From the IMG/VR virus record IMGVR_UViG_3300008113_005698, positions 1 to 44,695 of that record: a stretch of DNA of 44,695 nt; one strand, given 5' to 3'. Position 1 is the first letter of the stretch. Every line of letters begins with the position of its first letter. Under the pieces are notes generated by a model. It saw nothing but the letters and a program-made list of their open reading frames with translations, made no database searches and was not told where the DNA came from. Source of the stretch: a virus. Below are positions 6,052 to 32,507 of the stretch, piece by piece. Made by a program: the position numbers and the translations under genes.

Positions 6052-7695
6052 TTAGATTCTGTCTAAATCAGCAATTTTAATTTTACCATAGAATTCTGGT
6101 CTTACCATCTTCTTAGCGTATCTTGTCATAACACCACGTCTTGGAGTGAAGTTATCTGGATCGTATACTAATGGAGTTAATACCAATGGTACATATGGAG
6201 CATATACAGCACCTGTTTCTAAGAAGTTGTTACCTTTGTAACCTAATAACATTACGTTTTCAGTCATATAAGGGTTCTTGTAGACAGTGTATCTGTTAGC
6301 AATGTTACCAACTGAAGTCACACCTGCAGAGAACTGCTTAGCGTCTTTATCAGCTGATACTGCGAATCCTGGAATAGATTCTAAAATAGTACAAACATCT
6401 GGAGATGCAACGATGAAGTTAGCACCACCTCTTAATGTTAATTGATGAATCTTGTTAGAAACTTTGTTGATTTTCACACCTAAAGTTTGGAACCAAGAGT
6501 TCTTTTGGTATGCAGAAGCTGCTGCTGCGTTTGAATCAATTTCAAATGCGTCAGTACCTTGATTATACTCATATCCAACTCTAGCTGACCAGTACTCAGT
6601 TGTTAAAGCGTTAGCTTGTAACATTTCTAAGATTTCTAAGTCAATCTCTAAAGAGATGTATTCAGATAACATAGAAGTTAATTCAGCTTCAGCGTCAATT
6701 GAGTGGTAAGCGTTTAAGTCTTGAGCTAATTCAGGAGTCCATACTGCTTTCAACTTACGAGTTTTAGCAACGATAGCCTCTGATTTTAATTCAAGGTCGA
6801 TTGTTGGGATATCTAATGCATCACCATCATTTACATCATTAAATCTAGTTCCTTGCTCTTCGAAGTCACCTCTGTTGTAAGCTGTTGGTTGCTTAGAGTA
6901 AGCTAATACTACTGAACCAGTCCAACCTGAAGTTGAAGGTACTACGAAAGTAATGTTAGAACCATTAACTTTTGTAAATTGTGGGAAGTAACCACCATTG
7001 ATTGGTGCACCTGTGATTTGGAAAGTTCTTACTGCATTTAAATCTGCATCAGATGGAGCTCCGATAGTAATCTTCTTGTAAGTACCAGCGATTAAACTAG
7101 AACTGAAGTTTGCATCGAAATCTAAATCAGATAAATCTACTGAAGAAGTTGTCCATAAACCACCTGCAGATGCTGATGTAGTGTCATTGAATGTATATCC
7201 AAATCTACCAGCACCATATAAACCACCTTGAGCAGTTTGAGTTGAACCTAATTTGTCACCCGCTGGAGATAAAGAATCTTTACCTGCTAAACCACCACTA
7301 CCGAATAATGATGAGTTTTGGAATGAAGGTCTACCTGGTTGGTTAGAACCATATTTGAAGTCCATATAGAATATAAGACCTGAAGGTAAGTTCATTGGTT
7401 GAACTGAAACGAATTCCTTCGCTGCAATTTCACCGAAGATACGTCTTACAAGTGGTAAAGCCACCCCAGACCATTCTTCGTTACCAGCTGTTGTTGAAGT
7501 ATAGTTTGCTTCATCCAACAATTGCTTTGCTTGGTTTTCTAAAAGTACAGCCATACCCGCTTTTTCTGTTGGGGCTGCGATACCTTCTAAAAGGCCAGTT
7601 TTTTCCCACTTGCTTCTCAAACCTCTTGTTTGCTCAAGCATTACTGATTGTGGGTTTTTGCCTTCCATTAATTTTGATAAATCGAATTGTGCCAT
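6052..7695 (-). CDS. gp23: Major capsid protein (gp23-like)
   Basis: The 547-residue product is the T4 gp23-type major head protein (HK97 fold). Supporting segments include LPLVRRIFGEIAAKEFVSVQ near residues 82-101, the motif SEAIVAKTRKLKAVWTPELA, AHSIDAEAELT-like helices followed by ISLEIDLEILEML, and a C-terminus with YDPDNFTPRRGVMTRYAKK. The N-terminal 62 residues hold several (L/I/M)XE sites (residues 9-11, 35-37, 51-53), the cleavage preference of T4 gp21 protease, so the mature protein probably starts near residue 54-63. The leader before ATG is A-rich with no Shine-Dalgarno. It follows the scaffold gene by 23 bases and is closed by a strong terminator, as expected for the most abundant virion protein. 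Confidence 0.93.
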   Translation of the reverse strand: MAQFDLSKLMEGKNPQSVMLEQTRGLRSKWEKTGLLEGIAAPTEKAGMAVLLENQAKQLLDEANYTSTTAGNEEWSGVALPLVRRIFGEIAAKEFVSVQPMNLPSGLIFYMDFKYGSNQPGRPSFQNSSLFGSGGLAGKDSLSPAGDKLGSTQTAQGGLYGAGRFGYTFNDTTSASAGGLWTTSSVDLSDLDFDANFSSSLIAGTYKKITIGAPSDADLNAVRTFQITGAPINGGYFPQFTKVNGSNITFVVPSTSGWTGSVVLAYSKQPTAYNRGDFEEQGTRFNDVNDGDALDIPTIDLELKSEAIVAKTRKLKAVWTPELAQDLNAYHSIDAEAELTSMLSEYISLEIDLEILEMLQANALTTEYWSARVGYEYNQGTDAFEIDSNAAAASAYQKNSWFQTLGVKINKVSNKIHQLTLRGGANFIVASPDVCTILESIPGFAVSADKDAKQFSAGVTSVGNIANRYTVYKNPYMTENVMLLGYKGNNFLETGAVYAPYVPLVLTPLVYDPDNFTPRRGVMTRYAKKMVRPEFYGKIKIADLDRI

Positions 7696-8963: not shown

Positions 8964-8996
8964 TATGAATATACATATATAAAAGTTTAAAAAAAA

Positions 8997-9233: not shown

Positions 9234-9236
9234 ATA

Positions 9237-10761: not shown

Positions 10762-11346
10762 TTAGTTTAATTCTTCTATAATGTTTCTCATTAAATCATG
10801 TGCTCTACAATATTTACCACATTCATCAACGATGGTTTTGTTTACTCCCTCATTTACAGGTGATAAAAATGCACCATGAGTAGATGGGTTTGAAACAAAA
10901 TCCCAACCAATCAATTCAAAATCTTCTTGAACTACAACTTTGTTTTCTCCGATAGGTTTTACTGAACCTAATCCTCTACTACTAATACCTAAACGAATAT
11001 TATGCTTAAATAATTCTTTAAGAATATTTCCCGCTGGTGTAGATAATACTTCTACTGTCCCAACCAAATCTTTACCATCCCAATGCATATCTCTTACATT
11101 GTGTGATACATTCTTTAAGTTAATAACTGCAGAATCTGGATGGTCTAATTCACCCAAAGCTCTACGTTCATTAATTAATGTTTCGTATTTTTTAGCTTCT
11201 CTTTGTAATATTTGATATGGATATACTCTGCCATTTTGATTTTCAGCATCTGCTCTTTGCAATACACCTTTAACCAAAAAAGAACCATCCTTTTCTTCAA
11301 CCACTCCTTCAAATAGTCTATGTTCTATGATTAAATTCTTACTCAT
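10762..11346 (-). CDS. gp21: Prohead core protease (gp21-like, S80 serine peptidase)
   Basis: The 194-residue product is the maturation protease that digests scaffold and trims the capsid protein inside the prohead. It carries the family signatures: GRVYPYQILQREAKKY, the catalytic-histidine segment ALGELDHPD (His69), the serine segment LGISSRGLG (Ser122/Ser123), and a following VQEDFELIGWDFVSNPST block. T4 gp21 is about 210 residues, so the gene is full length. It lies between portal-side core genes and scaffold, as in T4. The C-terminal 40 residues (VNEGVNKTIVDECGKYCRAH) are probably a helical tail that may be self-cleaved. Confidence 0.92.
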   Translation of the reverse strand: MSKNLIIEHRLFEGVVEEKDGSFLVKGVLQRADAENQNGRVYPYQILQREAKKYETLINERRALGELDHPDSAVINLKNVSHNVRDMHWDGKDLVGTVEVLSTPAGNILKELFKHNIRLGISSRGLGSVKPIGENKVVVQEDFELIGWDFVSNPSTHGAFLSPVNEGVNKTIVDECGKYCRAHDLMRNIIEELN

Positions 11347-13207: not shown

Positions 13208-13219
13208 TATATAAATATA
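13208..13219 (-). promoter_or_regulatory. AT-rich promoter-like motif before the 290-residue gene
   Basis: The coding strand carries an exact TATATTTATATA 16 bases before the ATG at 13191, in the 33-base gap after the portal gene. The same 12-mer occurs in the gaps before the 78-residue gene and the 233-residue gene. Confidence 0.45.
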
Positions 13220-13224: not shown

Positions 13225-15042
13225 TTAAATTTCGAATAAGTTTTCTTCATCCATCATATTTTTTCCTTCGTGGATTATCTTCTTTGGATTGAATTTTTCT
13301 TTCAATTGTTTCATAAATGATTTACGAAAATCGGATTCAAACATATTTTGGTTTTCCTTATTACCCAATGGGTCTCTACCAAATTTTGAATCATCCTTTT
13401 GGTAACGATTTGCCGATTTTGGTCTACCTGCTTTATTAGCTTCCTCTACTCCTAAATCTTGTTCTAAACTTTTAATTTGTTGTTCTGCATCTACACCATC
13501 ATCCTGTTGGTTATCATCTTCTCCTTTAAATTTACCCAATTCACCATTAACATCTGTTTTTTGTTGGTCTGCTTCTGCTTTAGGGTCTTGTCCTGCTGTT
13601 TCAATTTGTGTTAAGCGGAATCTTTCTTTCGCATCTTTAACTAACATTTGTCTCATTTCCTCTGATTCCTCATCTGTGAAATGGAAAACATTTTTGTATA
13701 TCCACTCAACTGGAACTATTTTGTTATCTTGCATATCTCTCGCCAAATTAACTTTGTTTGACCATAAGTTAATTTTTTCTTGCTCAGCAATTGTTGATGG
13801 GTTTGTTAATTCCAATTCGAAATTTACTAATCTCTCATCTGTAATCCCTTGTGCATATAGGTGAGTCATACCAATTTTGTATAATTCACTAATTATAATC
13901 TTTTGCAATCTATCAATAGTTCTTGCAAAACGAACATCTTCTGCTGCTAATGTAGCTTTACCACTAACGTTTTCTTCATATCCTAAAAATGCTTTTGGAA
14001 CTTTTAAAGCAGCCATAAACTTATTTTTAAGATAATTGATATCATCAATTGCGGTATATTCTAAACCATCCAATGTTTCAACATCAGTACCACTATCACT
14101 ACCTCTTACCGGGAAGTAATAGTCTTCCATAATGTTTTGAATATTGAATTTTAAGTTATAATCACCTGTGTTCTCATTGATATATGGTTGCTTTTTAGAT
14201 TGAGCAATAATTCTCTTCATATAGTTCTCAACTTCATGTGGAGGAATATTACCAATATCAATTTTGAATTTTCTTTTCGCAGGAGCTCTCGTAATACGAT
14301 GGATTAACATCGCATCTTCCATAAGTGTTAATTGTTTCCAAACTCTTCTTGCTCCTTCTAATATTGATTTACCATAAGGTAACCAGTTAGTATCTGCTAA
14401 ATGACGGAAATGGGCAATCTCATAGTTATCATATTCAACTTTTTGCCCTGCTGAATACGTTGAGCGGACAGTAATTGGTGTTTGGATAAACTTTACTTTT
14501 TGTAAATGGTCTTTATCATATTCCTCAACTCTATTCATTTCATAAACCGAAACGGGTTGTACTGATACTATTCCCAATTCAGGTGCTATTTCTAATACTA
14601 AAAAGAAATCTCCATATTTACAAAGATTTCTAATCCAAGGCCATAAATTAAAATCAACATTTAAAATATCATAAAATAAATTTTCTAATATTTCTTTTAT
14701 TTGTTCATCCGATGAGTTAATTGCTAATACTTTTCCGTACTCATTTCTTGTTGTACATTCATCCGCATAGATATCCAACACCGATGCTATAATCGGGTCA
14801 TTATCCATTGCATCATAATCTCTAAAAAGTTCTTGTCTAATTTGTTGATAGGCAATATAATTCTCATAGTTGTATTGTGTAGATGAGGTGGTCATTCTTA
14901 AGAATCTATCTCTCAAGTTTGTTGATACCGCCTGTGTTTCATCATAATCAACTACCTTAATCTTTTTACCACCGACATTACGAATAATTACCTGTCCGGT
15001 GAAAAGTTTTTTTAGCCTACCAAATATTGTTGTATCTGCCAT
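13225..15042 (-). CDS. gp20: Portal protein (gp20-like)
   Basis: The 605-residue product forms the dodecameric DNA gate at one capsid vertex. T4 gp20 family features are present: the start with FGRLKKLF, MDNDPIIASVLDIYADECT in the first 100 residues, WPWIRNLCKYGDFFLVLEI, the segment GARRVWKQLTLMEDAMLIHR, the stretch RAPAKRKFKIDIGN, and FMAALKVPKAFLGYEE. T4 gp20 is 524 residues; the extra length is a polar C-terminal tail from about residue 490 (Gln/Asp-rich, ending FNPKKIIHEGKNMMDEENLF). It lies between the terminase side and the core/protease genes, as in T4 except that gp18 and gp19 are absent. The leader contains TATATTTAA. Confidence 0.93.
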   Translation of the reverse strand: MADTTIFGRLKKLFTGQVIIRNVGGKKIKVVDYDETQAVSTNLRDRFLRMTTSSTQYNYENYIAYQQIRQELFRDYDAMDNDPIIASVLDIYADECTTRNEYGKVLAINSSDEQIKEILENLFYDILNVDFNLWPWIRNLCKYGDFFLVLEIAPELGIVSVQPVSVYEMNRVEEYDKDHLQKVKFIQTPITVRSTYSAGQKVEYDNYEIAHFRHLADTNWLPYGKSILEGARRVWKQLTLMEDAMLIHRITRAPAKRKFKIDIGNIPPHEVENYMKRIIAQSKKQPYINENTGDYNLKFNIQNIMEDYYFPVRGSDSGTDVETLDGLEYTAIDDINYLKNKFMAALKVPKAFLGYEENVSGKATLAAEDVRFARTIDRLQKIIISELYKIGMTHLYAQGITDERLVNFELELTNPSTIAEQEKINLWSNKVNLARDMQDNKIVPVEWIYKNVFHFTDEESEEMRQMLVKDAKERFRLTQIETAGQDPKAEADQQKTDVNGELGKFKGEDDNQQDDGVDAEQQIKSLEQDLGVEEANKAGRPKSANRYQKDDSKFGRDPLGNKENQNMFESDFRKSFMKQLKEKFNPKKIIHEGKNMMDEENLFEI

Positions 15043-15365: not shown

Positions 15366-15377
15366 TATATAAATATA
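15366..15377 (-). promoter_or_regulatory. AT-rich promoter-like motif before the 78-residue gene
   Basis: An exact TATATTTATATA on the coding strand, 27 bases before the ATG at 15338 and within the 42-base gap after terminase. It is one of three perfect copies in the packaging and head region. Confidence 0.45.
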
Positions 15378-15380: not shown

Positions 15381-16982
15381 TTATCTGCGAATTGAGGACC
15401 TATCTATCAACCAAGTTAAATCTTCATCCTCAGCTTGCCCATTTACTTTCATTTTATAGGGGTTTTCTCTAAAGTCAGTTGATGAGTAGAACATTTCATA
15501 AGAGGTCTGTGTTATTGCTCCTAATGATGTTCTTGTTAAATCTATACCTTCTTGTCTTAAACGAAGTGCAGTATCTCTAATCCACAACCCAATACCTAAT
15601 GCAAATATAAGGTCATCGTTGTAACCTCTCATTGCTTCTGCTCTACTAGCTGGTCCCCATATGAATACAAAAAATTCATCCATTATTCTTTTACTCTTTA
15701 ATACAACTGAATTTTCTTTCATATAGTTATCAATTTTAGATACTATTAATGGTCTTGTTTTTGATGATATACCAAAACCTGGTGTCATATTTTTTTCTTT
15801 ACGATACCATTTGTTTGTCCATTGTGTATCTATATCAACATATTTTATATCATCATTTGAATAAAATAAATTTCTATATTCTCTATCTAATACTTGTTGT
15901 ATGGTTGCCCATCCAATATTTGCATTATCTATAATAAGTAATGCATCATTATATTCTGTTGCTGCGTTTACTAAAAAGTTTCCAAATTCTTTTGGGTCCA
16001 ACTTTCCTTTATATTCGGCAACTTGCTCACAATTTTCTAATTCTATTATATGAAATGCAGAATAATCTGCACCATCTCCTCTAGCCACATCCGCACATAA
16101 TAAATAACTTTTAGTATAATCTGGTCTTTTCCATATCCAAAAATTACCATCAAATCCTTTTCTTTCAATTGGTTCTTCTACTCTATCTAAATACTTTACT
16201 AAAATTTCAGAATCAATGACAGTATCACCTGTTGATATAAAGTCACAATCACATTCCTGTGCTGCTCCTTTTTTACCTAATTGTATTTCTTGTTCTTCTC
16301 TCCAACTTTGGTCTCTATCAGGATGTACTGTCCAATGGAGTTTAATAGGATTGAATAGATTTGTTTTATTTTCTGCACCAACCCATACCTGATGGAACCA
16401 GTTACCCACACCATTTGGAGTAGAAAGTGCAATACAACTACCACCCGTTGATAATGTAGATTGCGCAGATGTCCATATTTCTTCAATGTAATCAATGAAC
16501 GCTGCTTCATCAAATACAAGTAATGATAAGGCTTCCGAACGACCTGCATCTGGTTTTGATGAAATTGCTTTAATTTGAGAACCATTTGTAAAACGAAGTG
16601 AAAGTTTGTTATCTTCCTGTTCCGTTACCTTTAACCAGGATGGGAGAAACTCATTCATAACTCTAACTTTAAGTACCAAGTTTTTTGCAACCTCTTGTTT
16701 AGTTGCAATTACAAGTACGTTAAAATCATTATTAAAAATCATTTTCCAAAGTGAAAATCCCGCCACCAAAGTAGAGATACCTAGCTGACGAGATTTAAGA
16801 ACAACATTAAATCTGTTGTCTTTAAAATCAGATAATACATCCTCCTGAAATGAATAAAGGTCAAATGGAATTTTACCTTTAATTGGATGTTGAATCTTAC
16901 AATATTTTCTCATAAAGTAAATAGGGTCAACGGCACACTTACCATATTCTTCCCTAATTACTTCTTTAAGAGATTTAGCCAT
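15381..16982 (-). CDS. gp17: Large terminase subunit (gp17-like packaging ATPase/nuclease)
   Basis: The 533-residue product pumps DNA into the prohead and cuts it. ATPase motifs: Walker A VLKSRQLGIST (residues 61-71), Walker B LLVFDEAAF (154-162), and the coupling-type motif ALSTPNGVGNWF (185-196). Nuclease acidic residues fit Asp298 in LLCADVARGDGADYS, Asp352 in LLIIDNANIGW, and Asp456/457 in RGYNDDLIFALG. T4 gp17 is 610 residues; this one lacks some N-terminal length but has both domains. It follows a membrane-protein gene by two bases and is upstream of the portal. Confidence 0.95.
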   Translation of the reverse strand: MAKSLKEVIREEYGKCAVDPIYFMRKYCKIQHPIKGKIPFDLYSFQEDVLSDFKDNRFNVVLKSRQLGISTLVAGFSLWKMIFNNDFNVLVIATKQEVAKNLVLKVRVMNEFLPSWLKVTEQEDNKLSLRFTNGSQIKAISSKPDAGRSEALSLLVFDEAAFIDYIEEIWTSAQSTLSTGGSCIALSTPNGVGNWFHQVWVGAENKTNLFNPIKLHWTVHPDRDQSWREEQEIQLGKKGAAQECDCDFISTGDTVIDSEILVKYLDRVEEPIERKGFDGNFWIWKRPDYTKSYLLCADVARGDGADYSAFHIIELENCEQVAEYKGKLDPKEFGNFLVNAATEYNDALLIIDNANIGWATIQQVLDREYRNLFYSNDDIKYVDIDTQWTNKWYRKEKNMTPGFGISSKTRPLIVSKIDNYMKENSVVLKSKRIMDEFFVFIWGPASRAEAMRGYNDDLIFALGIGLWIRDTALRLRQEGIDLTRTSLGAITQTSYEMFYSSTDFRENPYKMKVNGQAEDEDLTWLIDRSSIRR

Positions 16983-16984: not shown

Positions 16985-17632
16985 TTATTTTTTCAATTTA
17001 ATCTTCCAATATACACCACCTCCGATGTATGGAGAAAGACTTCCATTAGTACCATCTGTTACTCTATTTGCAACACCTACACCAAGTTGATAGATTTTAT
17101 CTTTTTTAGTTTTTACAATAACACCTGCACCTATATTTGAAACAACATCTGTTTTGTTAAAACCACCATTGAAACCATAGTATACTTGTGTTTTTGGCAA
17201 TTCTTTAACAATAAGAGTTTCCTTAATAGTTCTTTCTTTTACTTTGGCATCAAACGTTCTACCTAATATTTTGTTTTGTGAAATTGTATCAGTTACAGCA
17301 ACTGTCCCTAATGAATCAGGTAATACTAATACATCTTTGTATAATACTTTTGAATAGTAATCTTTTAATAATGCTGCAGTATCAATAACCGCAGGAATTA
17401 CCACTTGCTTTTCTACAATTGTTTCGTGATAGATATCTTCACCTTTTTTAGTTACTACTTTTGTTTTAACAACTTCAAACGTATCTATATCATGCTTAAT
17501 AACTTCATATTTCTTTCCTTCAATACGAATTGTTCTACCAGGCATCTTTCCACCTGGATTAAAATACTCTAATAAAATGATTGCAATCAAAACTGCTATT
17601 GCAATATTCTTAATGTTCAATAGTTTTTTCAT
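16985..17632 (-). CDS. Membrane-anchored envelope protein, possible spanin-like role
   Basis: The 215-residue product has one N-terminal transmembrane segment (NIAIAVLIAIILLEYF, about residues 8-23) preceded by basic residues. A polar periplasmic-type stretch with heptad-like and beta character follows, then a C-terminal part of short aromatic strands (YYGFNGGFNK, IGAGVIVKTKKDK, LGVGVANRV, YIGGGVYWKIKL) resembling outer-membrane strand patterns. This could span the host envelope, as spanins do, or be an unrelated membrane protein. It sits between a zinc-motif protein and terminase. Topology is visible; the lysis role is speculative. Confidence 0.5.
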   Translation of the reverse strand: MKKLLNIKNIAIAVLIAIILLEYFNPGGKMPGRTIRIEGKKYEVIKHDIDTFEVVKTKVVTKKGEDIYHETIVEKQVVIPAVIDTAALLKDYYSKVLYKDVLVLPDSLGTVAVTDTISQNKILGRTFDAKVKERTIKETLIVKELPKTQVYYGFNGGFNKTDVVSNIGAGVIVKTKKDKIYQLGVGVANRVTDGTNGSLSPYIGGGVYWKIKLKK

Positions 17633-18311
17633 AATAATTGTTTTCTATAAATAGAGGAACATATAATTCTTTTATACTTTCCCAACTTTCGTCTCTAACT
17701 TTTCTTAAATTACTCAATAATTCTCCCAAATTTTCTATATCAGAAAGTATAGATTTCTTTAGTTCTTCAAGGTTACCATTAAAATTCCATTTTTCAAACG
17801 TACCATCTTCGTTTACAATTTCGGTAGTTTGTTTTGCATCTCTATATGCTTGCTCTAATTTAGCTTGCACTTCATTAAAATATCCAATTTCATTTGATGC
17901 TATTTTCCATTTCTCATAATCATCCCACTTACCTTTTAACATTATAAGAGATTCTCTTTTTGTTAAACAATTTATACAAAAACCATTTCTTCTTACCATC
18001 ATTAAATCTTTTGATGATAACTTTATGGTATTGCAATCATTTGCTTTGCATGTTGATAATGAATCTATGTATTGACGAATGTCATCGTATTTGGAAACTG
18101 ATATTTTAAAACCTTCTTTTTGTTCCCATTCCTTTCCATCACTATCGGTCCATCTTTCACCAACTTCTCTTTTGATTTGAGGTTCACTTTCAGGTGTCCA
18201 ACCGAAAGTATCTTTTGTATTCGATGCTCTACCATAGACAGTATCTATGATTTTTTGTCTTGACTTATGGATGTGTTTATTCTTTTCGTCAAACGATTTT
18301 CTTTTTGCCAT
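17610..18311 (-). CDS. Zinc-ribbon-like protein upstream of terminase (candidate small terminase)
   Basis: The 233-residue product has a basic N-terminus, a segment WTPESEPQIKREVGERWTDS, four cysteines spaced as a zinc ribbon (Cys88, Cys93, Cys112, Cys115; CKANDCNTIK and GFCINCLT), and a long charged helix ending LSNLRKVRDESW. It lies just upstream of the membrane protein and terminase genes, near where T4 has small terminase gp16. Small terminases bind DNA, so a zinc-binding DNA recognition protein would fit, but no family signature confirms it. It overlaps the next gene by 23 bases. Confidence 0.5.
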   Translation of the reverse strand: MAKRKSFDEKNKHIHKSRQKIIDTVYGRASNTKDTFGWTPESEPQIKREVGERWTDSDGKEWEQKEGFKISVSKYDDIRQYIDSLSTCKANDCNTIKLSSKDLMMVRRNGFCINCLTKRESLIMLKGKWDDYEKWKIASNEIGYFNEVQAKLEQAYRDAKQTTEIVNEDGTFEKWNFNGNLEELKKSILSDIENLGELLSNLRKVRDESWESIKELYVPLFIENNYYEKTIEH

Positions 18312-18325: not shown

Positions 18326-18347
18326 TTTGTATATATAAATATACAAA
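18326..18347 (-). promoter_or_regulatory. Promoter-like motif inside an inverted repeat
   Basis: The 12-mer TATATTTATATA (18332-18343 on the coding strand) sits inside an inverted repeat whose arms TTTGTATA and TATACAAA are perfect over eight bases and separated by six. It is in the 36-base gap between the 1351-residue gene and the 233-residue gene, 20 bases before the ATG. It could be a promoter with an operator. It marks the border between the glycan/fusion region and the packaging genes. Confidence 0.45.
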
Positions 18348-21300
18348 TTATCTTCCAAACTTAAAAATTCCTAGTATCTGATTTAATGGTGCGAATGTAC
18401 CTGTTAATTTGTAAGTGTTTCCGTTGTAGAAAAATACCAATCCTTCGTTTGGAACTAACTTATCAAATCCACCAATTGCGTTTAATCTAGCTAATTCTTT
18501 TTCTAATCTTTTTATTTGTTCTTCGGAACCCTGTGAACGTATTTGTGATATTGTACTATCTAATGAAGTTTTGATTGATTGTAATGCTTTATTAGGTTGT
18601 GCAGTTAATACTGAACTCATAAATGATAAAACTTCAGCACCAACTCCTAAAAAGATATCTTCAAATTTACGAAGGTTTCCTTTCATAATTTTATCTTTTG
18701 CATCTTTATCTACACCATCTGCCCATTTTTTAGCATCCTCATCTGTTATAGATTTTATACTAAATGCTTTGTTATCAAATGCCCATCTATTTGCTAAACC
18801 TACCTTTTCTTGTTGTTTTAATTTCTTCTTTGATTTATTTAAAAAATTAATCCACCAAGCATAATGATAATCAGCTACACCATCTGAATCTTTCAATCCA
18901 AATTCAGATTGTAGTTTAGAAATCATACCATTAAATCTACTTTTTTGAGAACTTAATTTTTCATCCTTTGGTAGTTTTGTAATAGGAGGTCCTTGTATTG
19001 TATATTTATTTTGTACATCTGCATTTACTTTTTTAATCATAGATGCCAATTTACTTTCCCCACCTTTTACTACACCAATTGCATTTCCTTTTTCATCATA
19101 CTCAACAACATTATGAAATACTAATAGATTTTGACCATAAGGTATTACGTTGGAATTTTTCGGATATATTACTTCTAAATTACAAAACGCTTTACCATCT
19201 TTGAATATTGCTTTTCTATCCTTTTCACTTAATGAATTTATTGCTGCTGATAAATCTCTCATTGCGAAATTGTATGCATCTGCCAATGGTCCTCTACCAC
19301 TAAATTTATCAGATAAAGCAGATGAATCTAATGCATTTGCTCCTGCATTTGCAAGATGTCCTTTATTACGAGCTGCAATTAATCTACCATTCTTCCAACT
19401 TACAGCCAATGCTTGTCCATCGGTTTTTTCTCTAACAACTCCCAAATTACCATCCAATGCACCATTTACTATATTTTTTAAATCACGAAAAGTTAAATTC
19501 ATTGAAATATCAAATGGATGATTCATATGTCCATATGCACCACCTTCTTTGATAATTTCTTTAGCTAAATAATCACTCAATGAATTATATACTTCTGTTT
19601 TTGTTTTATCCGAACCAGATTTAGCTGCAATACCCATATCCTCTGCAAATTTATTTGACATTGGAATAATCTTATCAATAGTATCATCAATAATCATTAC
19701 CTTCATTGGTATTGGCTTATCAGGATGTTTTAAATTATATGATGTAACTGCTGCCCATCTATGATGCCCATCGACTACATATCCATCTTTTGAAACATAT
19801 ATAGGAGCGGTGATTGCCGGATGTTCTGGGTTTTCTTCTAAAGCCCCTTCCATACCTAATACTTTTTGTCCAACTAATTCGGATTGGGTTGCTTTTAATG
19901 ATTCAACCGGTACTTCTTCGTTTGTAACTTTTATACCTTTATCTGCTAACATTTTTTTAAACATTGGTTCAGTATCAACCTCACCATCTTTATTTAATTC
20001 CATATTAGCAGCGGGTGTTCCAGGAATTGGTTTACCTTTGAATTGTGGCATTGCACTTCTTTCTATTCCTTTATTACCATCACAATACAAGTTAGTACCA
20101 GGTACTGAAATTTGGCATAAATTATATACCTCTCTCTTTATTCCGTTTTTCTTATCGTCTTCAAATTGTTTTTGTAAATCATTTATTTTTGTTGCAACTT
20201 GCTTTTTAAAATCTTCAGGAACATCTTGTAATTTAGGTTCTTTATCTATCGTTGTTCCATCTACTTTTAATCCACCACCTATTAAATCAACATGCCCATC
20301 ACCTGCTATTGTTATTGGTATTTTACCTTGTGATTGTAGTTCTTTTGTTTTCTTTAATAAGTTTAAATCTCTTGCTTTATTGAATGCAACTTGTACATCA
20401 TTTACCGGTGTTTCTATATCACCTTCGTCTTTTGGGAATGATAATCTATAAAGTGTTTCTACATCTTGTTCGGTTGGTTCTTTCCAATTTTGTATCGGCG
20501 GGAATCCAGCTTTTTTTATAGCATCGTTTAAAAACTTAACACCTTCTTTATCTAAAAAAATATTAGGTTTCATTGTATCTGTTCCTTCACCCTGTCCAAT
20601 CATACTAGCCCAGTTACCTGCCTTTACCTTACTTAAAGATAAACCAGTTGATTTAACTTGCATTGAATACAAATTAGAATTAGGATTATGCACATCCAAA
20701 TCATCACCATCAAATGTATCAATACCCGCTCCCATTTCTTTAAACTTTGGAGCTGCATATTTCATTTCATCGTTGAATTCTATTTCCCCATCTTTTCCGG
20801 TTCTACCACCTTCACCTACAAATACAACATCTTTCCATCTTTCTTCTGGAATAGTTGCTTTAACTTGTGTGATGATATCATCAACCATTTTTGTATTTTT
20901 ATGCTCAACACCATATAACTGCCCACCTTTTGTAAAAGGTAATGTTTTTATTTCTTGTTTAGATGATTCTCCTTTAAATACTTTTATTTTAGATTCAGGA
21001 TTATCACCATATGGTTTTAATTCTACTTTATTTGCAGATGGTTTAAATATATTTGGTTGTGGTTGTTGTTCTTCTCCACCATCGGTTGGTTTCTCTACCC
21101 CATTCTTCGGAAGTTCAGCTTTTTCGGAGCCGCTACTTTTGTCTGTGGTTTTAGGTTTTTCAGTAGAATTTGGTTTGGTTGTTGGTTTTTCTGCTCCTTT
21201 TTCACCTGTTGGTTCTTGTTTTGTTGCTTTTGGTTTGGCATTTGGTTCTACTGGTTTTTGTGCTCCTTTTTTTTGTACTAATGCAAGTGCCGTTTTATAT

Positions 21301-22403
21301 GCTGCACGCATACCTGGATCTTTTGCATCAGAATAGTTAAGAGCTGTTTTAACTTTAATCTTTTGTTTTGTTTTTGGATTTTCTACCGTCTGATTTAAAA
21401 CTTCTTCACTATATCCAGTACCATCTGAACTAGCTTCTGTAATTGGTTCATAGCAATATTCTTTATCGGTATCAGTTTTTTTTCTATAATCTGCTACTTT
21501 TTTTAATCTTGCATTTAATTCATCCTTTCCAGGATATCCCATACGAATACCACTCGCACCTGTCCCTACTCCAACTTCTTCTTCTACTTTTTTTAATTTA
21601 GTATAGTAATGTAAATCTTCCCAAATATGGTCTTTTGCTATTTCTGCTGCAATACGAATATCGGTTGTGTGTTCCATTTCAACTTTGATACCGATTTTAA
21701 TCTGCTCTTTTACATTCTCCATTACGTTTCTCCAATCATAATATTGGCCGGCGTATTTTTTAGCAATATCCTCTAATGATTTACTTTCCGATTTACCACC
21801 TGGAATAAATTCTTCGTTTATTTTTTTCTTTACCATGTTGAAAATGGTTTTATCCATTTTACCAAATGCATTGATAAAGAATTTTTCTTGTTGTTTTTCT
21901 GTTCCTTTTTTGAAAGCATTTCTAACTTCCGTACCACTCAATACATCTTGTTCTGGTGGGATTATATAAACATATCCTTTATCTTCGTATCCTTCTTTTT
22001 TTCCACTATTACTATATGTTTTAAAATAAGCACCTCTTAATCTTTGTGCATCTTTATCACCAACAGCTGCTACATAATAAGTTGTTTTTTTATCAAACTT
22101 ATTCATTATTTCTACCGGAGAATATGGATTTTTAATTTGAACAAATTTAGATGAAGGTACTCCGAACATTTTTGTTGCGATTTCCTTTTTATCTTTAAAT
22201 GAAAATGGAGATTTACTATCATCGGTTGCATTTGATGATGCTATAAAAACATTCCCACTACCAAATTTAGATACTAATCTTTGATAAGCGGCATAGTGTC
22301 CTCTATGAAATGGTTGGAATCTACCGGAATACACAACAACTGGTTGCATATCTTTTGCTTCCATTAATATACTTTCTACTAAAAAATTGGATAACGAATT
22401 CAT
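18348..22403 (-). CDS. Giant multi-domain protein: NMNAT-like, DGHHRW and KTDG domains
   Basis: The 1351-residue product has at least three recognisable parts. Residues 20-200 form a cytidylyltransferase-fold domain with VVYSGRFQPFHRGH (HRGH, 33-36) and SGTEVRNAF (156-164), as in NadM/NMNAT-type enzymes that join a nucleotide to a phosphate. Residues 375-455 are a Pro/Lys/Thr/Glu-rich linker. Residues about 755-920 contain NLCQISVPGTNLYCDGN and then a ParB/sulfiredoxin-like core, YVVDGHHRWAAV (876-886). Residues about 955-1110 hold REKTDGQALAVSW (Lys993), like the KxDG nucleotidyl-lysine motif of ATP-dependent ligases, with later FCNLEVIYP and LLVFHNV segments; this resembles the phage DUF6267 group as I remember it. 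The gene overlaps the SGNH gene by one base. Activities are inferred from motifs. Confidence 0.7.
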   Translation of the reverse strand: MNSLSNFLVESILMEAKDMQPVVVYSGRFQPFHRGHYAAYQRLVSKFGSGNVFIASSNATDDSKSPFSFKDKKEIATKMFGVPSSKFVQIKNPYSPVEIMNKFDKKTTYYVAAVGDKDAQRLRGAYFKTYSNSGKKEGYEDKGYVYIIPPEQDVLSGTEVRNAFKKGTEKQQEKFFINAFGKMDKTIFNMVKKKINEEFIPGGKSESKSLEDIAKKYAGQYYDWRNVMENVKEQIKIGIKVEMEHTTDIRIAAEIAKDHIWEDLHYYTKLKKVEEEVGVGTGASGIRMGYPGKDELNARLKKVADYRKKTDTDKEYCYEPITEASSDGTGYSEEVLNQTVENPKTKQKIKVKTALNYSDAKDPGMRAAYKTALALVQKKGAQKPVEPNAKPKATKQEPTGEKGAEKPTTKPNSTEKPKTTDKSSGSEKAELPKNGVEKPTDGGEEQQPQPNIFKPSANKVELKPYGDNPESKIKVFKGESSKQEIKTLPFTKGGQLYGVEHKNTKMVDDIITQVKATIPEERWKDVVFVGEGGRTGKDGEIEFNDEMKYAAPKFKEMGAGIDTFDGDDLDVHNPNSNLYSMQVKSTGLSLSKVKAGNWASMIGQGEGTDTMKPNIFLDKEGVKFLNDAIKKAGFPPIQNWKEPTEQDVETLYRLSFPKDEGDIETPVNDVQVAFNKARDLNLLKKTKELQSQGKIPITIAGDGHVDLIGGGLKVDGTTIDKEPKLQDVPEDFKKQVATKINDLQKQFEDDKKNGIKREVYNLCQISVPGTNLYCDGNKGIERSAMPQFKGKPIPGTPAANMELNKDGEVDTEPMFKKMLADKGIKVTNEEVPVESLKATQSELVGQKVLGMEGALEENPEHPAITAPIYVSKDGYVVDGHHRWAAVTSYNLKHPDKPIPMKVMIIDDTIDKIIPMSNKFAEDMGIAAKSGSDKTKTEVYNSLSDYLAKEIIKEGGAYGHMNHPFDISMNLTFRDLKNIVNGALDGNLGVVREKTDGQALAVSWKNGRLIAARNKGHLANAGANALDSSALSDKFSGRGPLADAYNFAMRDLSAAINSLSEKDRKAIFKDGKAFCNLEVIYPKNSNVIPYGQNLLVFHNVVEYDEKGNAIGVVKGGESKLASMIKKVNADVQNKYTIQGPPITKLPKDEKLSSQKSRFNGMISKLQSEFGLKDSDGVADYHYAWWINFLNKSKKKLKQQEKVGLANRWAFDNKAFSIKSITDEDAKKWADGVDKDAKDKIMKGNLRKFEDIFLGVGAEVLSFMSSVLTAQPNKALQSIKTSLDSTISQIRSQGSEEQIKRLEKELARLNAIGGFDKLVPNEGLVFFYNGNTYKLTGTFAPLNQILGIFKFGR

Positions 22404-23206
22404 TATGTATAAATATTACTAAAAAATTTTGTATATATACTTTCTGCAATTATTTTATGCCCTTCTAATGATAGGTGTGTATCTCCACATTGTTTTCCAT
22501 ATTTTGCACAAAAATCAGATTGTATTGAAAATATACGACCATTGTTGGTGAAATCGTGTATTGATGTGTATTGAATGTTTTTGTTATTTATTTTTATTAA
22601 ATTTTCTTTTATGAATTTGAATTCATCTTCACATATAACATCATACCAATGCTTATGTTGCCACAATAAAAATCCAACTTTGATTCCGATTTGAATATAT
22701 GGTTCTAATTTTTTCAGATATTTTCGTAACATATATCTAATCGCATCCATTTCAAATGAACTTGCACTAATTCCTTTTTCTATACAATAATCATATTGTT
22801 TTTCTTTATTCCATTCTTTTTTAGAACCCATACTTTCAAATTGGTCTCTATAAATGTCAGTAAATTGAATTACAATATGAGTTAATTCTTCTTTTTTAAA
22901 TGCAGTTTCTTTATCAAATCTTAATGTATCCGAATTACTTACCATTTCAGGTGTTTTTTCTGTAAGATAAAATAATCCATTTGAATTATTGCCACCATTT
23001 ATTGCTTGTGTTATATCTACACCATTTGCCATATCGGCAACTAATTTAGAAAATCTATGTTTTCTAATAAATTGATATTGTGGATATGTTAGTTCCGACT
23101 GATTATATACATGTTTCGGATGGAATACAACCGATGGTAATCCCGAATAATATTGTAATCCCTCACCCCAAGTGAATGAGCATCCTAAAAAAAGAAAAAC
23201 ATTCAT
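22403..23206 (-). CDS. SGNH/GDSL-family hydrolase
   Basis: The 267-residue product shows the SGNH pattern: block I FLGCSFTWGEG with nucleophile Ser10, and a C-terminal block with GDTHLSLEGHKI (Asp242, His244). Enzymes of this fold remove or transfer acyl groups, often acetyl, on carbohydrates. At the end of a glycan operon it could trim or acylate the sugar product, or de-acylate host polysaccharide. There is no signal peptide, so it would act in the cytoplasm or as part of the virion. The N- and C-terminal motifs are clear; the Asn and Gly blocks (GGNNSNG near residue 70) are plausible. Confidence 0.7.
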   Translation of the reverse strand: MNVFLFLGCSFTWGEGLQYYSGLPSVVFHPKHVYNQSELTYPQYQFIRKHRFSKLVADMANGVDITQAINGGNNSNGLFYLTEKTPEMVSNSDTLRFDKETAFKKEELTHIVIQFTDIYRDQFESMGSKKEWNKEKQYDYCIEKGISASSFEMDAIRYMLRKYLKKLEPYIQIGIKVGFLLWQHKHWYDVICEDEFKFIKENLIKINNKNIQYTSIHDFTNNGRIFSIQSDFCAKYGKQCGDTHLSLEGHKIIAESIYTKFFSNIYT

Positions 23207-23208: not shown

Positions 23209-23328
23209 TTACATATTTTTGTAAATGAATGGGTCTCTCTTACGAAGTTCTTTTATTTTCTTTTTAAATTCTTTTCTAAGCTTATATTCTTTATATAATT
23301 TCTTAAAATACGTTATAATCTTTTTCAT
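23209..23328 (-). CDS. 39-residue basic protein (small ORF)
   Basis: A complete frame of 39 codons begins with ATG at 23328, inside the last 26 bases of the glycosyltransferase gene, and ends two bases before the SGNH gene. The product is very basic and helical (MKKIITYFKKLYKEYKLRK) and ends KRDPFIYKNM. It fills what would otherwise be the only sizeable gap in the island. The coupling and the orderly helix followed by a DPFIY ending argue that it is real. I recall similar short proteins in other T4-like phages. Function unknown. Confidence 0.6.
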   Translation of the reverse strand: MKKIITYFKKLYKEYKLRKEFKKKIKELRKRDPFIYKNM

Positions 23329-24649
23329 TCTTAAAATTTTTTATTTTTTTGTAAAGTTTATACTCATATGTATCTCTATCCTTTCCTATTTGTTCCAATA
23401 ATTTTCTGTTATGTTCCAAATCAGCAAAATTTTCTTTTATCTTTTCTTTTATTTTATTTATATCAATAACGTTTATTCTATTTATTTCATTCATAACAAA
23501 TCTAAATCTTTCTTCGTTATTTTCTATATTGTCATAATATTCATTTATTAACCAATCAAAAGTTTTGAATCCTAATTCTTTTAAGTATTTTAAACTACCA
23601 GGTCTTCCTATCAAAATAAAAGGTTGTCCGTACCAGATTGGTTTCCAAATCTTTTCACTTAAATAGTTTGGTTCATCAAAAAATGAAGTTTCAGTCGTTA
23701 TATTAATTAATGTTCTATCGTAATGATTTTCGGTTTCACAATTGTACCCATGTGCGTTATTCATATCAACAAAATCTAAAACTTCTCTATCCTGAAGTTG
23801 TTCATATTTGGTTTTTATATCTTCACTTGCTTCTTCTTCAAACCACCTTTTACATATGTTACTTAATAGATGCTTATCAAAACTTATTAATGCATTATTT
23901 TTTATATTTTCAAATTGTTCTATTAAAAATAAAATTCTATGTTGAGATATATTTTTGTTATATGATAAAAACTTTTTATCTTTGTTATCTATTCCTTCTA
24001 TATTAAAATTGTATTTAGATTGCTTTGTAAAATATTCAGAACTATTTAATAGATACCAAGAATAATTTATAAATTTTGGAAAAAACTTTTCAGATAATAA
24101 GTTATTATTTTTACTTTGCTTATATTTTTTTATCTTATTTTCAATATCAAAATCATTCACTATTACCAAAACATTTCTCAAATCAAATCCATTTTCTCTC
24201 AATTTAGTAACAATACTATCTATAAAAAAATTACTTACATATCCTTCATGCGAATAATTTATTATTAGATTTCCCTTTCCATTATTTATTGCATCTTTTA
24301 TTTTAGGATTTATCTTTGAAAATACATTTGAATCATAAACAGAATGACTCCAATGACCCCAAAATTCTATTGGGTAATACCAAATATTTCCACATGCACC
24401 GGTTGCTGCGTAATAATATGGAACGAAATCAACTAATTGTTGGTGTGTTTTTATAAACCCACAATAGTTTGTCCATGTGTTGTATTTATCTGCTGTAAAT
24501 TTTCTTCCTAATTCAAATTCTAAACCATCTATATTTTTGTTTTCAATTTCTTTAATATAATTGAATACCTCACCATCCACTCCATTTGGAATAAATCCAT
24601 GAATGTTCCAATTATCATAAACTAAATATATTCTGTCAAAATTACGCAT
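23303..24649 (-). CDS. GT10-like glycosyltransferase, paralogue 1
   Basis: The 448-residue protein is one of three relatives in the island. All share a C-terminal donor-site-like block: here ITTETSFFDEPNYLSEKIWK, then PFILIGRPGSLKYLKELGFK and FDWLINEYYD. The pattern TE..F...LSEK..KP with a following G..G.L..LGF resembles the C-terminal part of GT10 fucosyltransferase-like enzymes. The N-terminus (FDRIYLVYDNWNIHGFIPNG) matches that of paralogue 3. It overlaps the thiamine-enzyme gene by eight bases. It probably moves a sugar from a nucleotide donor to a growing glycan; donor and acceptor cannot be read from the sequence. Confidence 0.55.
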   Translation of the reverse strand: MRNFDRIYLVYDNWNIHGFIPNGVDGEVFNYIKEIENKNIDGLEFELGRKFTADKYNTWTNYCGFIKTHQQLVDFVPYYYAATGACGNIWYYPIEFWGHWSHSVYDSNVFSKINPKIKDAINNGKGNLIINYSHEGYVSNFFIDSIVTKLRENGFDLRNVLVIVNDFDIENKIKKYKQSKNNNLLSEKFFPKFINYSWYLLNSSEYFTKQSKYNFNIEGIDNKDKKFLSYNKNISQHRILFLIEQFENIKNNALISFDKHLLSNICKRWFEEEASEDIKTKYEQLQDREVLDFVDMNNAHGYNCETENHYDRTLINITTETSFFDEPNYLSEKIWKPIWYGQPFILIGRPGSLKYLKELGFKTFDWLINEYYDNIENNEERFRFVMNEINRINVIDINKIKEKIKENFADLEHNRKLLEQIGKDRDTYEYKLYKKIKNFKNEKDYNVF

Positions 24650-25187
24650 AGTATAATTCAGGATACTCTACTAATATATGAATACCACCTTCTTTGGTTG
24701 CATATTTGTAAGCCAATTCAATATCAACTGGTGTTTTTAAATCGTGAAATTCTATATTTTTACAAAGAGATTTAAATTCTTCAAAATAATTTCCTCTATG
24801 TTGATGACCTGGATCTATTGGTTTATCACTACCCTTACCTAATCTAATAATTAAGTTTGGTTTCCATTTACCATCACTCATTACACCAATCTTATCAACA
24901 TGATTTATTAATTGATTTGCTGCACAAATAATAAAATCCCAACGAGGATAGAATGTAATAACTCTTTTACCAGCCATTGCCATACCTAAACTCATTCCCA
25001 TTTGAGTTTCTTCCATTACAGGAGTTTCTATCATTTTTTCTTTGGGTACAAAGTTTAAAGTTGTACTCATAGGATTACCTTGATAAACTATTTGTTGACC
25101 AATAAAAACAGAATCTTCTAATTCTGCTAAATTTTTCATAGCTTCGGTTAAAGCATCTTTATAAGGTGTATATTGTGGTGAACTCAT
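24642..25187 (-). CDS. Thiamine-diphosphate enzyme, pyrimidine-binding half
   Basis: The 181-residue product matches the pyrimidine-binding domain of transketolase and E1-beta type enzymes. Typical parts are ALTEAMKNLAELEDSVFIGQ, the segment IETPVMEETQMGMSLGMAMAG (Glu59 or Glu60 as the cofactor-activating residue), FYPRWDFIICAANQLINHVD, and KIGVMSDGKWKPNLIIRLG. It lacks the third C-terminal transketolase domain of full E1-beta. Its partner half is about 6 kb upstream at 31320-31964. Together they could transfer a two-carbon unit or decarboxylate a keto acid during sugar synthesis. The fold call is strong; the substrate is unknown. Confidence 0.75.
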   Translation of the reverse strand: MSSPQYTPYKDALTEAMKNLAELEDSVFIGQQIVYQGNPMSTTLNFVPKEKMIETPVMEETQMGMSLGMAMAGKRVITFYPRWDFIICAANQLINHVDKIGVMSDGKWKPNLIIRLGKGSDKPIDPGHQHRGNYFEEFKSLCKNIEFHDLKTPVDIELAYKYATKEGGIHILVEYPELYYA

Positions 25188-25190
25188 ACT

Positions 25191-26168
25191 TTATTTTTTA
25201 AATTCTGATTTATGCTCTAAATACCATTCGTATGCTGATTGTAATCCATCTTCTAATGATGTGGTTGCTTGCCATCCTAAATTATCATAAATCTTAAATG
25301 AATCAATCTTACGAGTAGGAATCATAGATGGTTTACCTTTGATAAATTCAGTTGGTGCATTATAGTTTGCAATTCTTTTCATTGATTCCAATACTTCCAA
25401 TACTGAATATACTCTATTAGAACCGATATTATAAACTTGGAAATCTTCTGTTTCTTTTTCCATCACAATTTGCAATGCTTCAACAAAATCTTCAATGTAT
25501 AATAAATCTCTTAATTCACTACCATCACCCCATACTGGAATTGGGTCCATCTTATCTGCTACTTTTCTAATTGTTGCGGGTGTAACATGGCATTTATCAA
25601 AATCATATTTATCATGCGGTCCGTATAAATTTGCAGGTCTAATGACAGTACATTTCATTTTAGTTGGTAAATATTTTGCATATAATTCACATTGAACTTC
25701 TGCATATCTTTTCATCCAACCAACAGGAAAGTATACTGGATATGGTTCATCGAATAAGAAATCTGTTTCTGTCACAGGTTGGTCACCTTTCGGTGGATAG
25801 ACTGTATTTGATGATAAGAAAATGTAATGTTGAACTTTATTTCTCCAACTTGCATCAATTAAAAAATTATTCATTGCTACATTCGGAGTAACATGTGCAA
25901 GTGGGTCAACGACAGTATCAACTGCATTTGATGTACTTGCTGCACAATGAAATACCGCATCTACTCCTTCGGTTGCTGCTAAACATCCATCATATGTTTT
26001 TAAATCATAGTATGTGTATTCAACACCATCTAATTGGTTTCTTACACCTCTATTGTGTAAATTAACTCTTATGTTTTTGTAACCTTGCTTATGTAATCGG
26101 TTTGTTAAATTCTGTCCGACTAAACCAGAACCACCTGTTATCAGGATTTTTGAATCTTTATTTATCAT
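25191..26168 (-). CDS. NAD-dependent nucleotide-sugar epimerase/dehydratase (SDR), first copy
   Basis: The 325-residue extended SDR has the dinucleotide-binding loop ITGGSGLVGQ (residues 10-19), FLSSNTVYP (117-125), RPANLYGPHDKYDF, and DLLYIEDFVEAL. It acts on NDP-sugars in the cytoplasm, in GDP-fucose-synthase or GalE style. One oddity is that the expected YxxxK tyrosine (four before Lys153) is Val149; the sequence reads PVYFPVGWMKRYAE. This GWMKR form seems shared with related sequences I recall from phages and bacteria, so it may be a distinct subfamily and not a dead enzyme. It lies three bases upstream of the thiamine-enzyme half. Confidence 0.82.
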   Translation of the reverse strand: MINKDSKILITGGSGLVGQNLTNRLHKQGYKNIRVNLHNRGVRNQLDGVEYTYYDLKTYDGCLAATEGVDAVFHCAASTSNAVDTVVDPLAHVTPNVAMNNFLIDASWRNKVQHYIFLSSNTVYPPKGDQPVTETDFLFDEPYPVYFPVGWMKRYAEVQCELYAKYLPTKMKCTVIRPANLYGPHDKYDFDKCHVTPATIRKVADKMDPIPVWGDGSELRDLLYIEDFVEALQIVMEKETEDFQVYNIGSNRVYSVLEVLESMKRIANYNAPTEFIKGKPSMIPTRKIDSFKIYDNLGWQATTSLEDGLQSAYEWYLEHKSEFKK

Positions 26169-26169
26169 A

Positions 26170-26883
26170 TTATTTTTTTATTATAACTTTGTTTTCTATA
26201 AACTTTTTGTGTTTTTTACTTGTTTCATATACTGATGGGAAGTGTATAGATGCATATCTTTTAAATTCTCCTTTTACTTCCGATACACCATGTTCTACAT
26301 CATTTTTTAACATATCCAATACAACATAATTTCCAAATACAGGCTCTATTGCCATATTATCTTCACCTTTGTTTCTTATATATAACCTACCACCATTTTC
26401 TTCTTTCCATTCATTTGGTTCTGTTAGGTAAATTAAAACCGCACATAATATATTACCATAGTTTCCATCTCTATGTGGATTTTGCATATCTCCATCAATA
26501 TATAAAGTAAATGGTCCACCTAAATTTAAATCAGATTGCTCGAAATCATATTCTTCATATAAATGATTTAATAATTTAAATGTTATTCTGTTTATGGGTA
26601 CTTGTATACTTTCATCATGTAGACCTTCTATCTCTCTCCATTTTTGATATACTTGATATCTATTTGTTTTAACATCAATATCTCTTTCTTTTAATTCTTC
26701 AAATGTAACTCTATTTGATTCGTAGTTACCACCCGAATGGTCATATCTTCCAGTTATGAATTTTGTATCCTTACTTTGCTCAATTACTTTGTTTTTAAGA
26801 ATAATCAATTCATCAATTTCTTCTTTTGTTAATATATCATAGATACTACCTATGTGATATCCTATTTCAAAAAAGTTTTCCAT
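26170..26883 (-). CDS. 2OG-Fe(II) oxygenase, copy 2
   Basis: The 237-residue protein has the prolyl-hydroxylase-like double-stranded beta helix: NPHRDGNYG (His137, Asp139), VFGNYVVLDM, DVEHGVSEV (His198) and FKRYASIHF (Arg209 for 2-oxoglutarate). It would hydroxylate or otherwise oxidise an amino acid side chain or sugar precursor using iron, oxygen and 2-oxoglutarate. It directly follows a related oxygenase with a one-base overlap and precedes an SDR gene by one base. The substrate is unknown; hydroxylation of a virion protein to make a glycosylation point is one possibility. Confidence 0.8.
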   Translation of the reverse strand: MENFFEIGYHIGSIYDILTKEEIDELIILKNKVIEQSKDTKFITGRYDHSGGNYESNRVTFEELKERDIDVKTNRYQVYQKWREIEGLHDESIQVPINRITFKLLNHLYEEYDFEQSDLNLGGPFTLYIDGDMQNPHRDGNYGNILCAVLIYLTEPNEWKEENGGRLYIRNKGEDNMAIEPVFGNYVVLDMLKNDVEHGVSEVKGEFKRYASIHFPSVYETSKKHKKFIENKVIIKK

Positions 26884-27632
26884 TATTTTACATTTTTTAT
26901 TTCAGCAAATTTATTCCAAGCATTAGATTCTGAATTTTCTTTCATTTCAACAAAATGTGCGTATGTAAATCTTTTAAATCCGTTTTTAATTTTATTAACA
27001 GCATGTCTTACATTATTTTGAGTGAAATCTAATATAACATAATCACCAAATTTTGGTGGAACATTTGCTATCTGTTTTTCATTTTCATTTTCCAAAACCA
27101 ATTCACCACCAAATGTATCATTCCAATTTTCGTTTAGATATAAAAGTATAACACATAATCTAGTTTCATTCACACCATCAGCATGCATTTCTATAAAATC
27201 ATTATCTTCGTAATAAGTTATCCCACCTCTACTTCTAACATCTGTTTCTTTTATTTCTAATTCTGGGTATGCATTATTTAATATTCGGATTGAAATATTA
27301 TGAAATTGTTCTCCCATTTGTAATGCATATCTTATATCTTTATTTGCTGCTTTAAACAATTCAACTTCATTTACAAAACACCATTTTTGAGAAAAATGTA
27401 AATTATTTTCTGTTAGGTATTTGTGAACGATGTGCATCTCATCATATGAATATGTATCATCCTCGCTCTTATCTTTGTAGTTATTTGTTGATAATCTTCC
27501 TTTTAATATTTGATTTTTATTATCTTCTACATATGGAAATATAGTAGTTAATTCTTTCAAATATTCTATTTCATTTGATGCTAAAACATTATCTATATTA
27601 TTAATTAAAAATCCGCTTTTTAAAATTTCCAT
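26883..27632 (-). CDS. 2OG-Fe(II) oxygenase, copy 1
   Basis: The 249-residue protein has the same fold as the next gene: FIEMHADGVNETR (His150, Asp152), LLYLNENWNDTFGGELVL, KFGDYVILDF, NNVRHAVNKI (His210) and FKRFTYAHF (Arg221). All metal and cosubstrate residues are in place, so it should be active. The pair arose by duplication or joint acquisition; they differ widely outside the core, so they may act on different substrates. Both ends overlap neighbouring genes by one base, implying coupled translation. Confidence 0.82.
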   Translation of the reverse strand: MEILKSGFLINNIDNVLASNEIEYLKELTTIFPYVEDNKNQILKGRLSTNNYKDKSEDDTYSYDEMHIVHKYLTENNLHFSQKWCFVNEVELFKAANKDIRYALQMGEQFHNISIRILNNAYPELEIKETDVRSRGGITYYEDNDFIEMHADGVNETRLCVILLYLNENWNDTFGGELVLENENEKQIANVPPKFGDYVILDFTQNNVRHAVNKIKNGFKRFTYAHFVEMKENSESNAWNKFAEIKNVK

Positions 27633-32506: not shown

Positions 32507-32507
32507 A

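Follow-up and report, generated by a model that had tools for sequence, protein, structure and literature searches.

Why should a T4-like freshwater phage keep, among its head genes, one long open reading frame (ORF) that codes for several enzyme domains in a row? The question is raised by a 1351-residue (aa) protein encoded on the IMG/VR virus contig IMGVR_UViG_3300008113_005698, whose whole 44,695-base stretch we call the window. An original prediction, made from this DNA, described a polyenzyme handling nucleotides or nicotinamide adenine dinucleotide (NAD), perhaps packaged and injected. We propose, at what we judge to be roughly even chances, that the protein is a polyvalent polyprotein which T4-like phages would express late, package in the head, cut and inject; its packaging, cleavage, injection, catalysis and substrate are predictions from sequence. 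We favor a head-packaged protein because of the register of its leader, the protease consensus at its junctions, the S77 protease gene and gp23 site of the same phage, its position near gp17 and gp20, the exchange of its cargo and its modules of polyvalent type. Domains, motif conservation, site pattern, leader register, synteny and cargo replacement were observed directly. Coordinates are collected in Table 1.

Leader and protease-consensus junctions

The ORF is real. It runs from ATG to stop on the minus strand (the original prediction gave no strand), the chance of an open frame this long is ~1e-49 at 29.7% GC, and a homologue on another phage contig (L004) is 84% identical over the full length.

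The protein begins with a leader that resembles the T4 capsid-targeting sequence. Residues M1, L4, F7, L8 and E10 fall in the register of T4 internal proteins (IP) II and III, MKTYQEFIAE↓A (positions 4, 7, 8 and 10; ↓ marks a cleavage site or its proposed equivalent). In the T4 sequence, residues 4 and 7 target the protein and residues 8 and 10 allow its processing (PMC9026906). A strict form of the motif was found in 1 of 46 window genes and in 1 of 296 genes of a 237-kb relative (G001), and it was the family gene both times. Microcystis phage Mel-JY01 has it once, in a gene outside the family and not in its family gene, WWT39297.1. The leader is retained ahead of differing modules (nucleotidyltransferase, KOW-like, basic and kinase). 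In one split gene (L101) the second ORF opens with its own leader-like sequence, and a free-standing C-domain in a jumbo relative (L172) opens MKFLKSYEEFLNENLILE↓GG.

The consensus of the T4 prohead protease gp21 is (L/I)xE. Cleavage by gp21 follows the Glu (PMC5694885). Of 103 unique sequences, 100 carry (L/I)xE↓GG directly ahead of the C-domain, against a background of 0.9% per residue for (L/I)xE. At this junction P3 is L or I, P2 varies (2.49 bits), E occupies P1 (0.15 bits; 90 of 92 unique 24-mers) and P1' is an invariant G. Conservation of the C-domain begins exactly at the GG. The kinase junction of marine members reads (aliphatic or Met)-x-E↓G in all 16 unique sequences, and five of the nine (L/I)xE sites in the window protein lie at or near domain borders (residues 10, 15, 197, 323 and 953). 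The major capsid proteins of the window (LLDE62↓A63) and of Mel-JY01 (LISE60↓A61) align with the T4 gp23 site (FLTE65↓A66), so this group of phages has probably retained gp21-type specificity. Leader, protease sites and head-gene position lend sequence support to the packaging and injection suggested originally.

Several observations weigh against a targeted and processed precursor. The internal nucleotidyltransferase junction is looser (11 of 13), with its site several residues upstream, and (L/I)xE also occurs inside domains, at 262, 857 and 1060. A leader-profile scan of internal junctions was mixed, with 36% beating 95% of their own shuffles. That the leader recurs as a whole at internal junctions is proposed as likely for the window and a few others only; the tripeptide is the robust part of the internal signal. 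The pattern used scored a leader in the window and in 41 of 70 complete members. The leader is missing from one clade of 22 members, whose starts are of IVDKP/RDKP type; the start codon there is probably GTG, and no hidden upstream leader was seen in the other frames checked. Given this clade, targeting either is not shared by all members or depends there on a different signal.

That clade would also fit a polyvalent head protein delivered whole, packaged and injected as an uncut chain, with its (L/I)xE stretches as remnants of helical linkers. Long disordered linkers would suit a single threaded chain, and the N4 virion RNA polymerase is packaged uncut despite a peptidase domain, according to passages of PMC5512222. 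Against an uncut chain, constraint falls on P3 and P1, with P2 and the upstream context left free, and this pattern coincides exactly with the protease consensus and the conservation border; in addition, the capsid protein of the same phage has a site of like form. We regard delivery of an uncut chain as doubtful, though it deserves to be kept in mind.

The two end domains

The N-terminal domain holds as a HIGH-superfamily nucleotidyltransferase at the superfamily level, as judged by profile matches and motifs. It scored 24.9 bits against PF01467 (CTP_transf_like; curated Pfam cut-off 21), which also matched 32 of 35 relatives, and it matched phrog_395. The HRGH (aa 33-36) and SGTEVR (aa 156-161) motifs of the original prediction contain H36, T158 and R161, which are invariant among relatives. 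The nearest NCBIfam models are all nicotinamide mononucleotide (NMN) adenylyltransferases, and every one falls far below its cut-off (equivalog bests of 25.7 bits against 449 for the NadM type and 23 against 127 for PRK01153).

NAD chemistry is possible for this protein. A true NAD-handling polyenzyme, in which NAD made by an NMN adenylyltransferase-like domain would be consumed by the KTDG domain, after the manner of NadR or an NAD-dependent ligase, nevertheless seems to us highly improbable. The identity of the nearest models points that way, as does the marine pairing of a kinase with a HIGH nucleotidyltransferase, which recalls NadR (NMN adenylyltransferase plus kinase; PMC9503650), and one relative's C-domain gave a weak LigA match (E 0.052). 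However, besides the low model scores, the NAD-binding domain of LigA was not recognised, and the marine kinases match AAA_33, zeta-toxin and polynucleotide-kinase types. The family shares the HIGH core with the phage enzymes of the NadR/NadM type, and in marine members the fused kinase, but it differs from them in lacking Nudix and in its kinase type. Of the nucleotide or NAD handling first proposed, the nucleotidyltransferase superfamily stands and the NAD-specific function is unsupported.

The C-domain is, in our estimation, likely to be a divergent ligase-like nucleotidyltransferase, on the strength of several tests combined, no single one of which is significant. KTDG lies at aa 993-996, as first reported. 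K993, D995, G996, R1012, N1013, K1014, E1077, E1320, G1321 and K1332 do not vary in 166 of 166 relatives, which reach down to ~35% identity, and VFH is nearly as constant. We take these residues to follow, in order and spacing, ligase motifs I, III, IV and V as known from T4 Rnl1 and Rnl2. For the AlphaFold2 (AF2) model (predicted local distance difference test, pLDDT, 78; predicted template modelling score 0.67), the 13 best Foldseek matches in the PDB were all RNA or DNA ligases (E 0.05-0.6). A viral fold search in BFVD returned homologues first and then a run of RNA ligases. In profile-profile comparison with hhalign, Rnl1 and Rnl2 ranked 1-2 of 12 profiles that included controls, at low probability; the alignments were in register at the catalytic Lys, and their scores were at the level of Rnl1 against Rnl2.

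Like T4 Rnl1, Rnl2 and archaeal Rnl3, the domain has KxDG, a motif III Glu, a motif IV EG and a motif V Lys in order, with a similar AF2 topology. Its Arg at +19 from the Lys resembles the spacing in ATP-dependent RNA ligases; in Rnl2 the pair is K35/R55, a spacing of 20. Unlike those ligases, it has a ~200-residue helical insert, HxxHPF at its start and Thr in place of the second motif V Lys, and no match to any known ligase is individually significant. If our reading is right, it is likely a new family within the RNA-ligase superfamily. As to redundancy with ordinary phage RNA repair, Pfam RNA_ligase was present in jumbo relatives and not found in the 237-kb relative.

The missing individual match stands on the other side, and aa 945-1351 matched no Pfam family, RNA_ligase included, and no convincing PHROG family. 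The C-domain profile drew only ribosomal S6/TetR-type chance matches from PDB sequences, and hhalign runs on T4 proteins taken one at a time failed to tell ligases from controls. A descendant that is structural or has lost catalysis, its KTDG being no active site, would account for the missing RNA_ligase match, the low hhalign probabilities and Foldseek E values of at least 0.05. We consider a dead domain unlikely: it would leave unexplained why the ligase-motif Lys, Asp-Gly, Arg, Glu, Glu-Gly and Lys are all retained at such divergence, and why RNA ligases directly follow the homologues in the viral fold search. The ligase link drawn originally keeps its motif evidence, with KTDG as motif I, while the structural matches taken singly remain below significance.

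An exchangeable middle

Between the end domains, the window protein carries DUF5661 (match at aa 232-276), a low-complexity linker and two further modules. The original prediction had recorded neither DUF5661 nor the domain at ~485-730, the N-terminal leader or the (L/I)xE at the C-domain start; its PKTE-rich linker is borne out, with 55% P/K/T/E at 380-462 against 30% in the whole protein. The DGHHRW core is present at aa 878-883, one residue from the 877-882 first given. Its domain matched phrog_2859 (E 2.4e-20) and resembles regions in 'PLxRFG' proteins of Salmonella and Klebsiella phages. An AF2 model of aa 465-945 (pLDDT 80) gave Foldseek matches to sulfiredoxin (Srx) 3cyi (probability 0.99, E 0.042) and the ParB N-domain 7bm8 (probability 0.97). 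Pfam ParB_N did not match the window protein, and one relative does match. The AF2 models were built on thin alignments of 35 and 18 sequences. The ParB/Srx fold suggested originally thus holds at the superfamily level, as far as the model goes. Structure comparison returned no clear match for aa 485-730 despite a confident model. This region has relatives in marine members at 28-30% identity. A TIKI/ChaN/EreA call made for it by eye had no Foldseek backing and is not claimed.

The family is widespread in uncultured aquatic T4-like phages and has hundreds of members: two partial scans of IMG/VR returned at least 225 and at least 304 relatives, lower bounds drawn from fragmentary contigs. In our phage-record collection the C-domain was carried by Mel-JY01 and two uncultured jumbo genomes alone, and a scan of bacterial genomes gave three contigs of metagenome-assembled genomes and no more, all three likely phage. 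Relatives retain the end domains around a middle of 15 to 1376 aa. In 23 of 24 relatives whose C-domain is at least 80% identical to that of the window, no middle could be aligned at BLAST E 1e-5; the middle is mostly conserved within clades and replaced wholesale between them. Cargo modules include ParB/Srx, a zincin (HELVHLKQ), a KOW-like module (LMGKFKNKKV) and Zn_protease, and marine members add an N-terminal P-loop kinase, GGPGSGK(S/T). Because the middle is exchangeable cargo and the domain borders resemble prohead-protease sites, the domains may work separately and not as a single chain, and the 'polyenzyme' first described has to be corrected to that extent.

Mel-JY01 encodes a direct homologue (WWT39297.1, cytidylyltransferase-like; N-domain 34%, C-domain 37% identity) that also lies ahead of the terminase gene. 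Unlike the window protein, it has ~20 residues between the two domains and no cargo, and its C-domain is unannotated. Both middle modules of the window recur, reordered, in giant phage proteins that lack the end domains (L085-L087), one of which (L086) has two ParB/Srx copies. In the jumbo L172, from the same phage as L003, the free-standing C-domain gene precedes another gene, which has the nucleotidyltransferase domain at its end: a natural split. The family gene is broken into two or three ORFs in L054, L077 and L080, through sequencing errors or real splits.

Genomic setting and relation to known systems

The genes for gp23, gp20, gp17 and the S77 protease share the strand of the 1351-aa ORF. 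Among IMG/VR relatives, the family gene lies upstream of gp17 in 160 loci (median 1.1 kb) and of gp20 in 135. This synteny, seen in nearly all loci, would also suit a soluble late enzyme that aids DNA packaging or end maturation beside the terminase and stays unpackaged, its ligase-like and kinase domains healing DNA ends. A targeting-like leader is unexpected for such an enzyme, cargo replacement would be odd for a packaging factor, and jumbo relatives have separate RNA ligase and kinase genes at other loci. We think an unpackaged enzyme improbable.

An unnamed gene directly 3' of the family gene in 92 loci (median gap 30 bases) codes in the window for a 233-aa product without a Pfam match, possibly a small terminase or partner. 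On the coding strand, the canonical T4 late promoter TATAAATA was not found upstream of the 1351-aa gene, where its opposite-strand form TATTTATA stands instead. The latter lies 4-29 bases ahead of seven gene starts, this one among them, with a strong strand bias (14:2 in the window, 201:33 in marine relatives), and perhaps serves these phages as a variant late-promoter element. In the head-gene cluster, a DUF5856 protein (E 1.5e-14) is encoded at 10383-10754, just downstream of the prohead protease gene. Adjoining the head genes, a long sugar/glycan-type cluster (23303-43023) contains a lone transketolase pyrimidine-binding domain (24642-25187) and several genes that we take, by eye, for epimerases, dioxygenases and glycosyltransferases. 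PADLOC returned no matches.

Table 1. Coordinates of the features discussed (window positions unless a locus is named)
Feature	Residues	Position	Strand	Basis
Whole ORF, ATG to stop	1-1351	18348..22403	-	
Leader MNSLSNFLVE↓SILME↓A, two (L/I)xE sites	1-15	22359..22403	-	T4 capsid-targeting-sequence-like
HIGH-superfamily nucleotidyltransferase	19-200	21804..22349	-	PF01467, phrog_395, invariant residues
DUF5661	205-280	21564..21791	-	PF18905, E 1.9e-10
Low-complexity P/K/T/E-rich linker	350-465 (richest 380-462)	21009..21356	-	
Middle alpha/beta domain (GEGG, AGDGHV)	485-730	20214..20951	-	AF2 confident; marine relatives
ParB/sulfiredoxin-like domain with DGHHRW	757-926	19626..20135	-	phrog_2859, Foldseek
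Second leader-like stretch NSLSDYLAKEIIKE↓, before C-domain	934-953	19545..19604	-	(L/I)xE↓GG junction
RNA-ligase-like covalent nucleotidyltransferase domain (putative)	954-1351	18351..19544	-	Motif invariance, AF2, Foldseek, hhalign
C-domain motif residues	K993xDG, R1012, E1077, VFH 1095-1097, E1320G, K1332			
Unnamed gene between family gene and gp17		17610..18311	-	Synteny, 92 loci
Large terminase gp17, conserved downstream neighbour		15381..16982	-	Synteny
Portal gp20, conserved downstream neighbour		13225..15042	-	Synteny
Prohead protease gp21/Peptidase_S77, proposed processing enzyme		10762..11346	-	PF03420, E 1.5e-25
Major capsid protein gp23		6052..7695	-	
TATTTATA		4648-4655, 5989-5996, 13210-13217, 15368-15375, 17646-17653, 18334-18341, 22408-22415	coding	
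Giant proteins sharing middle modules		L085:5272-9546, L086:5269-11247, L087:2-3916		
L172 split genes		5986-7248 and 7271-9241		

In the mechanism we propose for a packaged and processed polyprotein, a T4-type capsid-targeting leader would bring the precursor into the prohead core, where a gp21-type protease would cut behind the Glu of (L/I)xE sites, both in the leader and at domain borders, of which the one ahead of the C-domain is the clearest. The cuts would release separate nucleotide or RNA-end enzymes that remain in the head and reach the host along with the DNA. There, the HIGH nucleotidyltransferase, the ligase-like domain (carrying AMP on Lys993), the ParB/Srx-like domain and the marine P-loop kinase would act at an early stage, with RNA or DNA ends as their most likely targets. 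The combination of kinase, nucleotidyltransferase and ligase suggests the handling of nucleic-acid ends, although function after entry is itself only predicted, a further point to be set against the proposal. By analogy, the enzymes perhaps repair host-cleaved RNA at the moment of entry; conflicts over such RNA are reviewed in PMC9503650 and PMC7824862. More tentatively still, fresh- and seawater T4-like phages may carry a capsid-loaded end-repair kit, made as one targeted precursor that is diced at domain borders around a central cargo-exchange slot. Its parts might be the HIGH nucleotidyltransferase, the divergent ligase and the marine polynucleotide-type kinase.

If true, this model would explain how one gene delivers several enzymes, would precisely predict the mature N-terminus of each domain, and would offer a cargo slot in which to look for domains of host takeover or counter-defence. 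The minimal version occurs in a named phage, Mel-JY01 (host Microcystis elabens), which makes these ideas testable. The literature searched, mostly outside subscription journals, held no phage-head example of a capsid-loaded, protease-processed polyprotein; on prohead-protease polyproteins the search, with thin coverage of those journals, returned the polyvalent-protein paper alone (PMC5512222).

We compared the family with two known kinds of protein. Polyvalent proteins, as described in passages of Iyer et al. 2017 (PMC5512222), are large chains of exchangeable enzymes encoded near head or terminase genes and expected to enter with the DNA, and they include ParB/Srx and zincin-type modules. 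This family likewise is multidomain, with exchangeable effector-type domains near portal and terminase genes. It differs in its two fixed bookends (HIGH nucleotidyltransferase and ligase-like), its T4-type leader and its protease-consensus junctions; the polyvalent domains in those passages include no ATP-grasp ligase. With T4 IPI-III and Alt (PMC9026906) it shares a targeting-like N-terminus in the same register, an (L/I)xE site, a gp21-type S77 protease and the head-gene context. Those T4 proteins come from separate genes with one cargo each, whereas the window precursor holds several domains and repeated sites. If our reading is correct, T4 capsid targeting and processing and the polyvalent proteins are joined here in one gene.

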